Made by a program: the position numbers and the translations under genes | In this document: positions 36,943 through 41,041 of the stretch, in pieces | Position numbering within the stretch: position 1 is the stretch's first letter | How the letters are laid out: every line of letters starts with the position of its first letter | Assembly: GCF_003670115.1 (NCBI RefSeq) | Contig: NZ_QQTY01000001.1 | Span: 1,116,001 to 1,180,000, forward strand | Source of the DNA: Natronorubrum halophilum | GTDB taxonomy: Archaea; Halobacteriota; Halobacteria; Halobacteriales; Natrialbaceae | DNA length: 64,000 nt | Reading direction: 5' to 3' | The notes under the pieces: model-generated | Database searches by the model: none | Told to the model about the DNA's origin: nothing | What the model saw: only the letters and a program-made list of their open reading frames with translations

Positions 36943-37291
36943 GGGCCGAACTACACCGTCAACGACCATAAACCAGTTTGGCCGTTTATACGACGATCAA
37001 TCGTGCAGATATGACGGGCCGGCAGGCTACGGTCCGAAGCCGGCCAGCGAGTTACAGCCGCGGGCATTCGCATTTGGATCCGTCGAGGCGGGCGTCGCCT
37101 CTGGTGGTAGCCGTTCGAGAATCCCCAATGGGGCCTACCGCACTCCGTAGGCACCGACTACCTCGGCGACGTACTCCCAATTGAGTATTATTCTGAAAAC
37201 GAGGTGCAATCGAAACGATCACTCGAAACAGGGTGTGGTTTCGTAGATACAGATTGTGATTTACAATGTACTGATTCGCTGATTCTCAGGT
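36943..37291. other. intergenic region before the DUF3494 lipoprotein gene
   Basis: A 349-bp gap with no convincing gene. A TATA-like TTTATA at 36985-36990 precedes an ATG at 37011 whose first 16 bases (to 37026) are identical to the start of the MATE gene at 34033. The frame that follows is Arg-rich and not protein-like. From about 37180 the DNA becomes AT-rich (TTGAGTATTATTCTGAAAAC, GATTTACAATGTACTG) and probably holds the promoter of the next gene. Confidence 0.6.
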
Positions 37292-40018
37292 ATGGATTAC
37301 AGTCCAACCAGACGGACGGTCCTCGCATCGAGTGGATTACTCACAGCCGGTCTCGCCGGTTGTATGGGCGCCGCGCAAGAAGATGGCGATCCCCCGGTCC
37401 AGATCCAGCAAGACGGTCCAGCACCGGTCGATCTCGGGACGGCCTGTGACTTTTCGATCCTGGCAAAATCCGGGATCTCGAGCGTTCCCAATTCCGACGT
37501 GACAGGGGACATTGGCGTGAGTCCGATCGCGTCGACCGCCATAACCGGGTTCGATCTGACGCTGGATGCATCCGGCGTCTATTCGACATCGACGCAGGTG
37601 GGCGGACGGGTGTACGCGGCCGATTATTCGGAGCCAACACCGTCCAGATTGACCACGGCCGTGAGCGATATGGAAACCGCGTTCACCGATGCGTACGGCC
37701 GCGTCCCGCCAGATGAAACGAATTTAGGCGGCGGCAACCTCGCCGGGCAAACACTGACTCCGGGAGTGTACAATTGGGATACCGGCCTCTCGATCGACGA
37801 CGATATCACCATCGACGGCGGCCCGGACGACACCTGGATCTTCCAGGTCGCGGGCGGTCTCAGCGTGGCGAGCGGGGTGACCGTCAATCTTGAAGGGGGC
37901 GCGCAGGCCGAAAACATCGTCTGGGTGGTCGCCGGCGGTCCCGGCGTCGAGATCGGAACGGACGCGAACTTTGCGGGGGTCGTGCTGGCCCAGACGGGGA
38001 TCAACGTGCTCACCAACGCAACGGTGGACGGCTGTCTGTACGCCCAAACCGACGTCAATCTTCAGATGGCGACGGTTACCGGGTGCGATTGCGATCTCGT
38101 CGACCTGCAAGTGGACTCGGCGTGTGTAGATGAGGAAGGGGAGATCACGGTAACGAATCCCAACGACGTCTCGGTGATGGTAACCGTCACCGGTCCCGAT
38201 GGGTACGAGGAGACGATGGAGGTTCCCGCCGGTGGTTCGGCGACGTGGGGGAATCTCGCGGATGGAACGTACTCGCTCGAGACCGACAACATCGCGATCG
38301 GTCTCGATATTACGACGCTCAATGTCAGTTGCGATTCGGCCGTCCCCGACGTCGTCACGACGCCCGCGACGGACGTCAACGGCTCGACGGCCACGCTCAA
38401 CGGTGAGTTAACCGACCTCGGTGACTACGACACCGTCGACGTCTTCTTCGAGTGGCGCGAGCTCGGTACGGACGAGTGGATCGCCACCCCACCCCAGACG
38501 CTTGACGCGCCCGGCGACTTCAGCGACGGGATCGAGGGTCTCGAGCCCGGCACCACGTACGAATTCCGGGCGGTCGGGCTGGCGAACGGCGAACGAGTCG
38601 AAGGAGCCACGCTTCGCATCATCAAGGAGGTGCCAGGTGTACCGCAGGTCATCACGTCGCCGGCGACGGAGGTCAACGGATCGACGGCCACGCTCAACGG
38701 CGAACTGCTCGATCTCGGGGACTACGACGCGGTCGACGTCTTCTTCGAGTGGCGTGAAGTCGGCACGGACGAGTGGACTGCCACCGCGCCGCAAACGCTC
38801 GACGCGCCCGGCGACTTCAGCGCCGGGATCGCGGGCCTCGAGCCCGGCGGCACGTACGAGTTCCGGGCGGTCGCAGTGACCGATGACACGCGCGACGAAG
38901 GGGCCACTCTCTCGTTCACCAAAGACGAACCCGGCGCACCCATCGTCGAAACCCAGACGGCGACGGAGATCAACGGATCGACGGCGACGCTCAACGGTGA
39001 ATTGATCGAGATTGGGGACTTCGATTCCGTCGACGTCTTCTTCGAATGGCGTGAGCTCGGCGAGGACGAGTGGACCGCCACCGAGCCCCAGACGCTCGAA
39101 GAGACCGGCTCCTTCAGCGACGGGATCGAGGGCCTCGAGCCCGGTAGCACGTACGAATTCCGGGCGGTCGTAGTGGCCAATGGCACGCGTGAGGAAGGAA
39201 CCATCGTCTCGTTCACCAAAGCTGAGGCCGGCGTCCCCAGCGTCGAGACGGAGCCGGCGACAGAGATCAACGGCTCGACCGCGACGCTCAACGGTGAAGC
39301 GCTCGATCTCGGCGACTTCGACACCGTCGACGTCTTCTTCGAGTGGCGTGAACTCGGCGCGGACGAGTGGATCGCCACCGATTCCCAGACGCTCGACGAA
39401 CCCGGCGACTTCAGCGCCGGGATCGAAGGCCTCGAACTCGGTTCCACGTACGAATTCCGGGCGGTCATGGTCGCGAACGGCGAACGGTTCCTCGGAGTCA
39501 CGCTCTCGTTCACCAAATTCGGGCCGGATGAGTTGGAGGTCGAGACGAGGCCAGCGACGAAGGTCAACGGCTCGACGGCCACGCTCAACGGCGAACTGCT
39601 CGAACTCGAGGGTGCAGCGGAGGTTACCGTTTACTTCCTGTACCGCGTCAAGGGAACGACGGTGTGGACGTTCACCGACGAAGCGGTCCTCACCGAACCC
39701 GGGCCGTTCAGTGCGACGGCGACGAACCTCGAGACTGGCACAACCTACGAGTTCCAGGCGGTCGCCCAGGTGGGCAGCACAGTGGTGTACGGCGAGATTC
39801 TGGAGTTTACGAAGGAACCCGCTAATGGGGGCAACGGGAAGAAAAAGAAGAAGAAAAAGCGCAAATACAAGCGCGCAAAACGCGAGTACGAGAAGTACAA
39901 AAAGAAATACGAGAAAGGGAAGGTGAACAAGAAGCAACTGAAAAAGAAGCGCCACGCCTACGAGCGCGCAAAACGCGAGTACGAGAAGTACAAAAAGAAC
40001 TGTAAGAACGCGTCCTGA
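37292..40018 (+). CDS. DUF3494 (ice-binding-like) lipoprotein with five repeats and Lys-rich tail
   Basis: A 908-residue surface protein. A signal with Arg-Arg (TRRTVLASSGLLTAGLAG) leads to lipobox C24. A DUF3494 beta-solenoid follows (about 48-270): DFSILAKSGISSVPNSDVTG, GDIGVSP, LTPGVYNWDTG, WIFQVAGGLSVASG and FAGVVLAQTGINV. This domain occurs in ice-binding proteins and in surface proteins of organisms that never meet ice. A linker (271-353) precedes five fibronectin-like repeats of exactly 99 residues (354-848). Each has INGSTATLNGE or a variant, VDVFFEWRELG and GTTYEFRAV. The last 60 residues are Lys/Arg/Tyr-rich (KKKKKKKRKYKRAKREYEKY), strikingly unlike the acidic remainder. A remnant of a transposase follows. 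Probable role: adhesion or surface interaction. Confidence 0.87.
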   Translation: MDYSPTRRTVLASSGLLTAGLAGCMGAAQEDGDPPVQIQQDGPAPVDLGTACDFSILAKSGISSVPNSDVTGDIGVSPIASTAITGFDLTLDASGVYSTSTQVGGRVYAADYSEPTPSRLTTAVSDMETAFTDAYGRVPPDETNLGGGNLAGQTLTPGVYNWDTGLSIDDDITIDGGPDDTWIFQVAGGLSVASGVTVNLEGGAQAENIVWVVAGGPGVEIGTDANFAGVVLAQTGINVLTNATVDGCLYAQTDVNLQMATVTGCDCDLVDLQVDSACVDEEGEITVTNPNDVSVMVTVTGPDGYEETMEVPAGGSATWGNLADGTYSLETDNIAIGLDITTLNVSCDSAVPDVVTTPATDVNGSTATLNGELTDLGDYDTVDVFFEWRELGTDEWIATPPQTLDAPGDFSDGIEGLEPGTTYEFRAVGLANGERVEGATLRIIKEVPGVPQVITSPATEVNGSTATLNGELLDLGDYDAVDVFFEWREVGTDEWTATAPQTLDAPGDFSAGIAGLEPGGTYEFRAVAVTDDTRDEGATLSFTKDEPGAPIVETQTATEINGSTATLNGELIEIGDFDSVDVFFEWRELGEDEWTATEPQTLEETGSFSDGIEGLEPGSTYEFRAVVVANGTREEGTIVSFTKAEAGVPSVETEPATEINGSTATLNGEALDLGDFDTVDVFFEWRELGADEWIATDSQTLDEPGDFSAGIEGLELGSTYEFRAVMVANGERFLGVTLSFTKFGPDELEVETRPATKVNGSTATLNGELLELEGAAEVTVYFLYRVKGTTVWTFTDEAVLTEPGPFSATATNLETGTTYEFQAVAQVGSTVVYGEILEFTKEPANGGNGKKKKKKKRKYKRAKREYEKYKKKYEKGKVNKKQLKKKRHAYERAKREYEKYKKNCKNAS
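38351..39835 (+). repeat. five tandem 297-bp repeats inside the DUF3494 gene
   Basis: The codons for the Val/Ile-Asn pair at the start of the INGSTATLNG-type segment begin at 38375, 38672, 38969, 39266 and 39563, an exact 297-bp period. Each unit encodes one 99-residue fibronectin-like domain. Copies 1 to 4 are very similar at the DNA level (GTCGACGTCTTCTTCGA recurs); copy 5 is the most divergent (AEVTVYFLYRVKG). The array can expand or contract by recombination. Confidence 0.9.
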
Positions 40019-40457
40019 TCCGGTCGAACAACCGGCCCGGTCGCGTTCGACCGCGCCGACCGTGGCGTCGCCTCGAGCGGTTCGTTATTTTGCGCTGTTG
40101 AACTCCGCTACAGTGAGAATTTTTGAGGCAGTCGAGACGATCGTGCAACCGTAGCCACAGTAGTACTCTTCAGCGGGTAGATCGGCGCATTTCGACGCAT
40201 CCGGATCGGCAGGCATCGCTCTCACGTCGGTTGAATCGATGCGAGAGGTCAAATCGAGCAGGCCGCAGACGGTTGCCTGCTCGAGAGGTGGTCGAAGACC
40301 TCGTCGACGTGTCGATGTCGGTGAGAAAGCGATCGACCGATCCCAGGTAAATCGCCGACCGCTCGCTTTCGAGACAGTTCGTGAAGGCGAGCGCGCTGTG
40401 GCTCGAAGTAGCACTATCGGAAAATGCGTTCGAATCGCACGGAAAACGGTCTCCGAG
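40019..40457. other. gap holding a transposase remnant
   Basis: A 439-bp stretch between the repeat protein and a small membrane-protein gene. The first 65 bp are plain intergenic DNA. From 40085 to about 40330 lies a minus-strand transposase fragment, described separately. The remaining 130 bp show no gene. Confidence 0.65.
40085..40330 (-). mobile_element. remnant of a transposase gene
   Basis: On the minus strand the frame ending at a TAA at 40085 reads LLDLTSRIDSTDVRAMPADP, then DASKCADLPAEEYYCGYGCT and IVSTASKILTVAEFNSAK. From memory this matches the central catalytic region of a common haloarchaeal IS transposase (its D-S-T-D-V-R-A-M segment and the YYYGYGCTIVSTGQKIPIAAEFTE-like region). 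The N-terminal and C-terminal parts and terminal repeats are absent, and changes such as C for Y suggest decay. Not functional. Confidence 0.65.
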
Positions 40458-40715
40458 TTACCGACGCGACTCGAGGAGCGGAACGCCGTTGTGTCGGCAG
40501 TATTCGAACGCGTGAACCGCGGCCAGACCGAGGGCGACGACCGCGAACATCGTCCCGGCAATCGGGACGCTCAACTCGGGTGCGCCGGCCGAGAAGAGCA
40601 CCGCCGACGTCGTTGCAGCGAGGAGGGCGGCGAGGGTCACCGCGTAGATGGTCGCGCTACTCATGCGGAACCACGTCGATGCGGGGACGTACCGTTGTCG
40701 TGTCGGATTACCCAT
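40458..40715 (-). CDS. small two-TM membrane protein
   Basis: An 85-residue protein with two hydrophobic helices (about 22-43 and 49-70) and a short charged tail containing EYCRHNGVPLLESRR. A TATA-like CCATAATAAAA (40737-40747, read on the minus strand as TTTTATTATGG) lies about 25 nt before the ATG, supporting this start over an internal Met at residue 18. No family recognised. Confidence 0.7.
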   Translation of the reverse strand: MGNPTRQRYVPASTWFRMSSATIYAVTLAALLAATTSAVLFSAGAPELSVPIAGTMFAVVALGLAAVHAFEYCRHNGVPLLESRR

Positions 40716-40858
40716 ACATAGGTGTTAGTAATCCACCATAATAAAACCAGTGGAGATGTCACCCAGGGTGAACGATGGCCGCGGAAGGGCTGACTCGAGA
40801 CACCGGCGACCCGGCTCAGAGAGATATCGCTATCAGGTCTGCACCCGACTCAACCGGT

Positions 40859-41041
40859 ATGGCAGACGAAACGAAGCCGACGGCAGAAGGCGACGGAGAC
40901 GATTCCGACGGGACCGGAATGGCGATCGGGATGGGGACCGGCGTCGCGATCGGCGTCGCGATCGGCGTCGCGATGGATAATCTGGCGATCGGGATCGCCA
41001 TCGGCGTCGCGATCGGGGCGGGAATGGGGACGGCGATGTGA
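40859..41041 (+). CDS. glycine-zipper small membrane protein
   Basis: A 60-residue protein. An acidic N-terminus (MADETKPTAEGDGDDSDGTG) leads to two hydrophobic segments built of a Gly-x3-Gly pattern (IGMGTGVAIGVAIGVAMDN and LAIGIAIGVAIGAGMGTAM). Glycine zippers pack helices closely and occur in small membrane proteins of unknown role. The DNA shows a 12-bp tandem repeat (GTCGCGATCGGC) at 40941-40976. A longer frame starts 28 codons upstream, but this ATG gives the compact form. Confidence 0.65.
   Translation: MADETKPTAEGDGDDSDGTGMAIGMGTGVAIGVAIGVAMDNLAIGIAIGVAIGAGMGTAM

Follow-up and report, generated by a model that had tools for sequence, protein, structure and literature searches.

A horizontally spread DUF3494 protein of Natrialbaceae with an altered ice-binding face and a reused cationic tail module

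Results

Overview of the gene and its features

The stretch of DNA analysed here, referred to as the window, comprises 64,000 nucleotides of contig NZ_QQTY01000001.1 of Natronorubrum halophilum. It contains a gene, gained by horizontal transfer, that encodes an exported 908-residue protein made of a DUF3494 domain with an altered ice-binding face, a series of fibronectin-like (FN3) repeats and a cationic tail that is reused by other proteins of the family. The best explanation, to which we give about an even chance of being right, is that the protein, horizontally spread among Natrialbaceae and exported by the Tat route, is displayed on the cell surface, usually with a lipid anchor, and acts like a modular adhesin. 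The features of the region are as follows.

37292-40018, plus strand: exported DUF3494-FN3x5-cationic tail protein, 908 residues (open reading frame, Pfam, AF2 model)
37292-37363, plus strand: Tat signal peptide with lipobox (sequence pattern: RR at residues 7-8, GLAGC, Cys24)
37421-38086, plus strand: DUF3494/Ice_binding beta-solenoid domain, residues 44-265 (PF11999, PDB sequence match, AF2, Foldseek)
38093-38332, plus strand: small all-beta domain, unnamed, residues about 268-347 (AF2 strands)
38336-38632, plus strand: FN3-like repeat 1, residues 349-447 (Pfam, AF2 and repeat comparison, as for repeats 2 to 5)
38633-38929, plus strand: FN3-like repeat 2, residues 448-546
38930-39226, plus strand: FN3-like repeat 3, residues 547-645
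39227-39523, plus strand: FN3-like repeat 4, residues 646-744
39524-39820, plus strand: FN3-like repeat 5, residues 745-843, the most divergent
39833-40009, plus strand: cationic helical-hairpin tail module with Tyr/Ala in heptad positions (AF2, recurrence)
37018-40859, no strand: segment lacking from two congeners, G107 and G109, at the orthologous (empty) site (flank comparison)
40088-40340, minus strand: decayed IS transposase remnant in two blocks (also found behind the gene in other genomes)

Domain architecture of the protein

The N-terminus (SPTRRTVLASSGLLTAGLAGC) shows an RR motif, a hydrophobic stretch and a lipobox Cys, which as a pattern corresponds to a haloarchaeal Tat lipoprotein. 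The lipobox Cys is present in 16 of 21 homologs and missing in the other five, and is therefore not universal. The C-terminus, being a charged hairpin without a hydrophobic segment, does not resemble that of archaeosortase (PGF-CTERM) substrates. Residues 1-842 carry a net charge of -119, as compared to +26 for the tail (residues 843-908).

Residues 56-263 matched the whole Pfam profile of PF11999 (Ice_binding, positions 1-208 of 208; E=2.7e-67, 227 bits with a cut-off of 28.7), and the best PDB match by sequence (phmmer) was 4nu3 (E=3.7e-69). The AF2 model of the domain, built with 21 homologs of the locus, had a pLDDT of 93.2 and a pTM of 0.91; Foldseek aligned it with 9lhn, 4nu3, 3uyv and 5b5h at TM values of 0.95-0.96 and about 0.8-1.1 Å. 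The full-length AF2 model gave a pTM of 0.33, and domain-domain geometry was not read from it.

The small beta domain, which separates the DUF3494 domain from the repeats, gave no Pfam match above the cut-off. The motif NGSTATLNG recurs at residues 363, 462, 561, 660 and 759, giving five repeats with a period of 99 residues. Repeats 1-4 are 66-74% identical to each other and share 46-52% identity with repeat 5. The region matches Pfam fn3 (PF00041, E=8.7e-14), and the model places about seven to eight strands in each 99-residue unit. Most homologs have five repeats and that of Halohasta has one; for two copies of 1201-1202 residues, eight repeats are deduced from their length (294 additional residues). 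The same FN3 type is found in haloarchaeal pectate lyases and in DUF1349 proteins encoded on plasmids. A preliminary description made from the sequence had proposed a lipoprotein signal, a DUF3494 domain, five 99-residue fibronectin-like repeats and a Lys-rich C-terminus in one 908-residue protein; all of these hold, with exact strand, coordinates and length, while the small beta domain had been missed.

Distribution among haloarchaea

PF11999 was matched in 20 of 125 Natrialbaceae genomes, 17 of which (that of the window included) have the full domain, and in none of the nine other Natronorubrum congeners. About 15 other Natrialbaceae genomes encode the same architecture, and the full-length identity among tail-bearing homologs across genera is mostly 78-91%. 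Carriers include Natrinema zhouii, N. mahii, Halovivax asiaticus, Natrarchaeobius chitinivorans, Natronobiforma cellulositropha and Natronoglomus mannanivorans, together with Natribaculum breve and Halomicrococcus gelatinilyticus (both on plasmids) and Halohasta litorea. The homolog on the Halomicrococcus plasmid (L183, NZ_CP100466.1) has aglM, aglF and glycosyltransferases as neighbours, and it ends in another domain that replaces the tail. On another haloarchaeal plasmid (L184, CP095393.1, 13363-13485) we observed a 123-bp aphA15 fragment with 100% identity in PLSDB, possibly an artefact.

Elsewhere in the class Halobacteria PF11999 is rare. Other haloarchaeal proteins (L018, L019, L021, L025-L028) gave weak matches of about 20-25 bits and are perhaps distant solenoid relatives. 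The domain reappears in other archaea of the wider phylum, here called methanogens on the basis of their position outside the Halobacteria and of the DUF3494 proteins reported for Methanomicrobiales (PMC9957290). The public record of one haloarchaeal copy already reads "ice-binding family protein"; a literature search for DUF3494 or ice-binding proteins together with haloarchaea retrieved nothing on these proteins.

Horizontal acquisition of the gene

The flanks of the segment (up to 37017-37021 and from 40914 of the window) lie about 200 bp apart in G107 and G109, as compared to 3.9 kb in the window, which makes a clean empty site. In 17 carriers, the synonymous divergence (dS) from the window copy ranged from 0.23 to 0.65; two control genes from each of these genomes gave 0.53-1.09. 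The gene lay below both controls in all 17 carriers, at about half their divergence. In a phylogeny built from the DUF3494 region, six Natrinema copies did not group into one clade, and their monophyly was rejected (AU p=7.5e-5). No conserved gene neighbourhood was found between genera, synteny being confined to Halovivax, Halohasta and partly Natrinema, and DNA similarity usually stops near the open reading frame (at 37280-37327 on the left in most copies, at about 40010-40340 on the right). Relatives are also located on haloarchaeal plasmids. The empty site, the patchy presence, the low dS, the conflict of the gene tree, the plasmid copies and the lack of an inter-genus neighbourhood give good support to a gain by horizontal transfer.

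This agrees with the recent gain suggested in the preliminary description, which had pointed to the nearby transposase remnant. The remnant is real, and is weaker evidence than supposed there: the same one follows the gene in genomes of other genera (G075, G061, G062, G040), so that it marks a shared history rather than a demonstrated vehicle. For the same reason, the adjacent IS was rejected as the origin of the insertion in the window. A viral origin was likewise discarded, no relative being found among IMG/VR contigs or phage records.

Two further features were noted in this region. A 33-bp stretch at 37080-37112 is 94% identical to sites in contigs of G106 and G108 and may be either a dispersed repeat or the end of an element. 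At 40860-41041 (plus strand) a small Gly/Ala/Ile repeat protein (GIAIGVAIGAGMG...) is encoded, whose orthologue begins at the right edge of the congeners' empty site.

A conserved cationic tail shared with other kinds of protein

The 66-residue tail contains 26 Lys, whereas the maximum in any 60-residue stretch of 213 neighbouring proteins is 8. Two helices are predicted (848-874 and 880-906); for residues 851-900, the AF2 pLDDT of successive 10-residue blocks is 77-91. Tyr859, Ala862, Tyr866, Tyr869 and Tyr873 in the first helix, and Leu883, Tyr890, Ala893, Tyr897 and Tyr900 in the second, are mostly spaced by 3-4 residues, as would be expected of a two-helix coiled hairpin with the charges outside.

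A search with 59 residues of the tail found it in 27 of 125 Natrialbaceae and, among 391 Halobacteria genomes, in no other family. The tail gave no match in a PDB search and none above the cut-off in Pfam. Besides DUF3494 proteins, it terminates at least three other kinds of protein in Natrialbaceae, singly or in tandem. One is a lipobox protein of the IQWGGQGSENATQ...-FN3x3 kind, which carries two tail units; another is a Tat-exported FCGTF...-Ig-like protein, and a third is a PQQ/DUF7282 protein. The FN3x3 proteins of Natronorubrum halalkaliphilum and N. bangense share with the window protein the FN3 type and the tail module; they differ in their two tandem tail units and in having the IQWGGQGSENATQ... 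N-terminal domain instead of DUF3494. The Lys-rich C-terminus is thus a conserved, reused and undescribed module, probably for envelope retention or adhesion. Homologs without the tail occur in Halohasta, Halomicrococcus, G093 and G334. The G093 protein (L044, 1420-3261), a diverged DUF3494 protein, carries tandem copies of a 15-residue Cys repeat (SDEDCPEEKEKKEKK) at its end. On the Natribaculum breve plasmid the gene is split: the open reading frame ends just ahead of the tail, and the tail sequence follows after a gap of about 1.6 kb. Inside this interruption, which sets the tail apart from the last FN3 repeat (L035, CP095393, 5748-7495), there is a 485-residue open reading frame on the opposite strand.

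A positively charged hairpin attached to a protein that is strongly acidic elsewhere, together with the lipobox of most homologs, is also what a structural envelope linker would show. Such a protein would hold its N-terminal lipid in the membrane, cross the space under the S-layer with the FN3 stalk and bind the acidic S-layer glycoprotein with the hairpin, without being adhesive. A stalk of about five FN3 domains would come close to the haloarchaeal pseudo-periplasm in length, which speaks for this arrangement. However, the number of repeats in the stalk is variable (1 to about 8), several homologs have no lipobox Cys or no tail, and the patchy presence would be odd for a structural part. We consider a linker unlikely, while still giving it some weight.

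The ice-binding face is altered in haloarchaeal copies

The window domain shares the full PF11999 domain and the fold (TM 0.87-0.96) with the ice-binding proteins FfIBP, LeIBP, TisAFP and that of Candidatus Cryosericum, and is 46-54% identical to its best structural matches among DUF3494 ice-binding proteins. It differs from them in its acidic halophilic surface, in a 2-residue insertion and a Thr-to-Glu change in the middle of the ice face, and in a Thr-to-Asn change in the last coil. The DUF3494 proteins of methanogens (G464, G469, G580, G689), archaeal members of the family that share about 50-57% identity with the window domain, retain the Thr ice face, and some have several domains in tandem.

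The ice-binding site of TisAFP7 consists of six parallel strands, with Val126, Leu150, Val177, Val195 and Val213 pointing inward (PMC7966756). The equivalent strands in the window are 166-168, 190-192, 219-221, 237-239 and 254-257, outward side chains being assigned by the TisAFP7 pattern and not from coordinates. The central position 220 is Glu in 20 of 20 haloarchaeal copies, preceded by the 2-residue insertion, whereas it is Thr in 10 of 11 methanogen copies and in 4nu3, 3uyv and 9li0. Position 256 is Asn in 19 of 20 haloarchaeal copies and Thr in all 11 methanogen copies; Asp254 is present in 12 of 20 haloarchaeal copies. Overall, the haloarchaeal face bears 1-4 acidic residues, as compared to 0-1, and varies more than the domain as a whole (mean entropy 0.74 vs. 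0.35). By these residues, it does not match the flat, largely uncharged b-face with small or Thr residues that is expected of functional DUF3494 ice-binding proteins. Part of this acidity may be a general halophilic surface adaptation.

Judged from these residues, the altered and variable face argues against selection for a match to ice, and ice binding by the haloarchaeal copies is unlikely. The preliminary description had approached the protein through ice binding: the domain stands, and the ice role is weakened by a face altered in all haloarchaeal copies. That the protein genuinely binds ice, protecting or anchoring cells in freezing brines, would be in keeping with the full-length PF11999 match and with the TM of 0.96 to active ice-binding proteins. 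The ice face of the family, moreover, follows no strict motif and varies between active members (PMC7966756), and the moderately active LeIBP likewise has a Glu on it; for this reason the face lowers the claim without closing it. On the other hand, besides the changes at the face, the named hosts are not obviously a cold set and the domain is predicted to be membrane-proximal. Altogether, we consider an ice-binding role improbable.

Discussion

That the protein may be a surface adhesin or a cell-cell contact protein, as the preliminary description suggested, is plausible. In the modular adhesin that we prefer, the DUF3494 beta-solenoid would offer a flat binding face retuned from ice to another ligand (a polymer, a glycan or a mineral surface), the FN3 repeats would form a stalk of variable length, and the Tyr/Lys hairpin at the far end would dock on the acidic envelope or matrix of the same cell or of a neighbour. 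DUF3494 is commonly partnered by Ig-like and adhesion domains (PMC9957290). Ice adhesins of the Shewanella frigidimarina SfIBP_1 type, cited in the same paper, combine, like the window protein, DUF3494 with tandem beta-sandwich domains; here, by comparison, the domain is predicted to sit beside an N-terminal lipid anchor and is followed by haloarchaeal FN3 repeats and then by the cationic hairpin.

In ice adhesins of the SfIBP_1/MpAFP type the ice domain is at the far end of the stalk. If Cys24 is lipidated, the order would be reversed with respect to such a classical tip adhesin, with DUF3494 close to the membrane, the stalk directed outward and the tail distal. Docking of the tail on the S-layer or on a neighbouring cell would then be as likely as the tip-adhesin model. 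Against an adhesin speak the homologs without the lipobox Cys or the tail and the lack of recurrent adhesion-related neighbours, the aglM/aglF glycan genes beside the Halomicrococcus copy being the only case. As for the ligand, the names of some carriers refer to growth on chitin, cellulose or mannan, which are insoluble polysaccharides, and the FN3 type is present in haloarchaeal pectate lyases, so that polymer binding is no more than a lead.

The least probable of the readings considered is a matrix cross-linker, whose tail would bind extracellular DNA or acidic exopolysaccharide within a biofilm: a Lys/Arg-rich hairpin, sometimes in tandem, does occur on several exported proteins, some without lipobox, but molar salt screens simple charge attraction.

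Returning to the modular adhesin, we tentatively suggest, with somewhat less than even confidence, that the hairpin is a reusable Natrialbaceae docking domain to acidic envelopes or surfaces at molar salt, and that haloarchaeal DUF3494 was re-purposed from ice to another surface ligand. If the tail is a docking module, it would represent a new route by which exported haloarchaeal proteins are held at the surface, in addition to lipid anchors and archaeosortase. The usual label for DUF3494 is "ice-binding"; a mobile haloarchaeal branch with a consistently altered ice face is a natural test of other ligands of this family.
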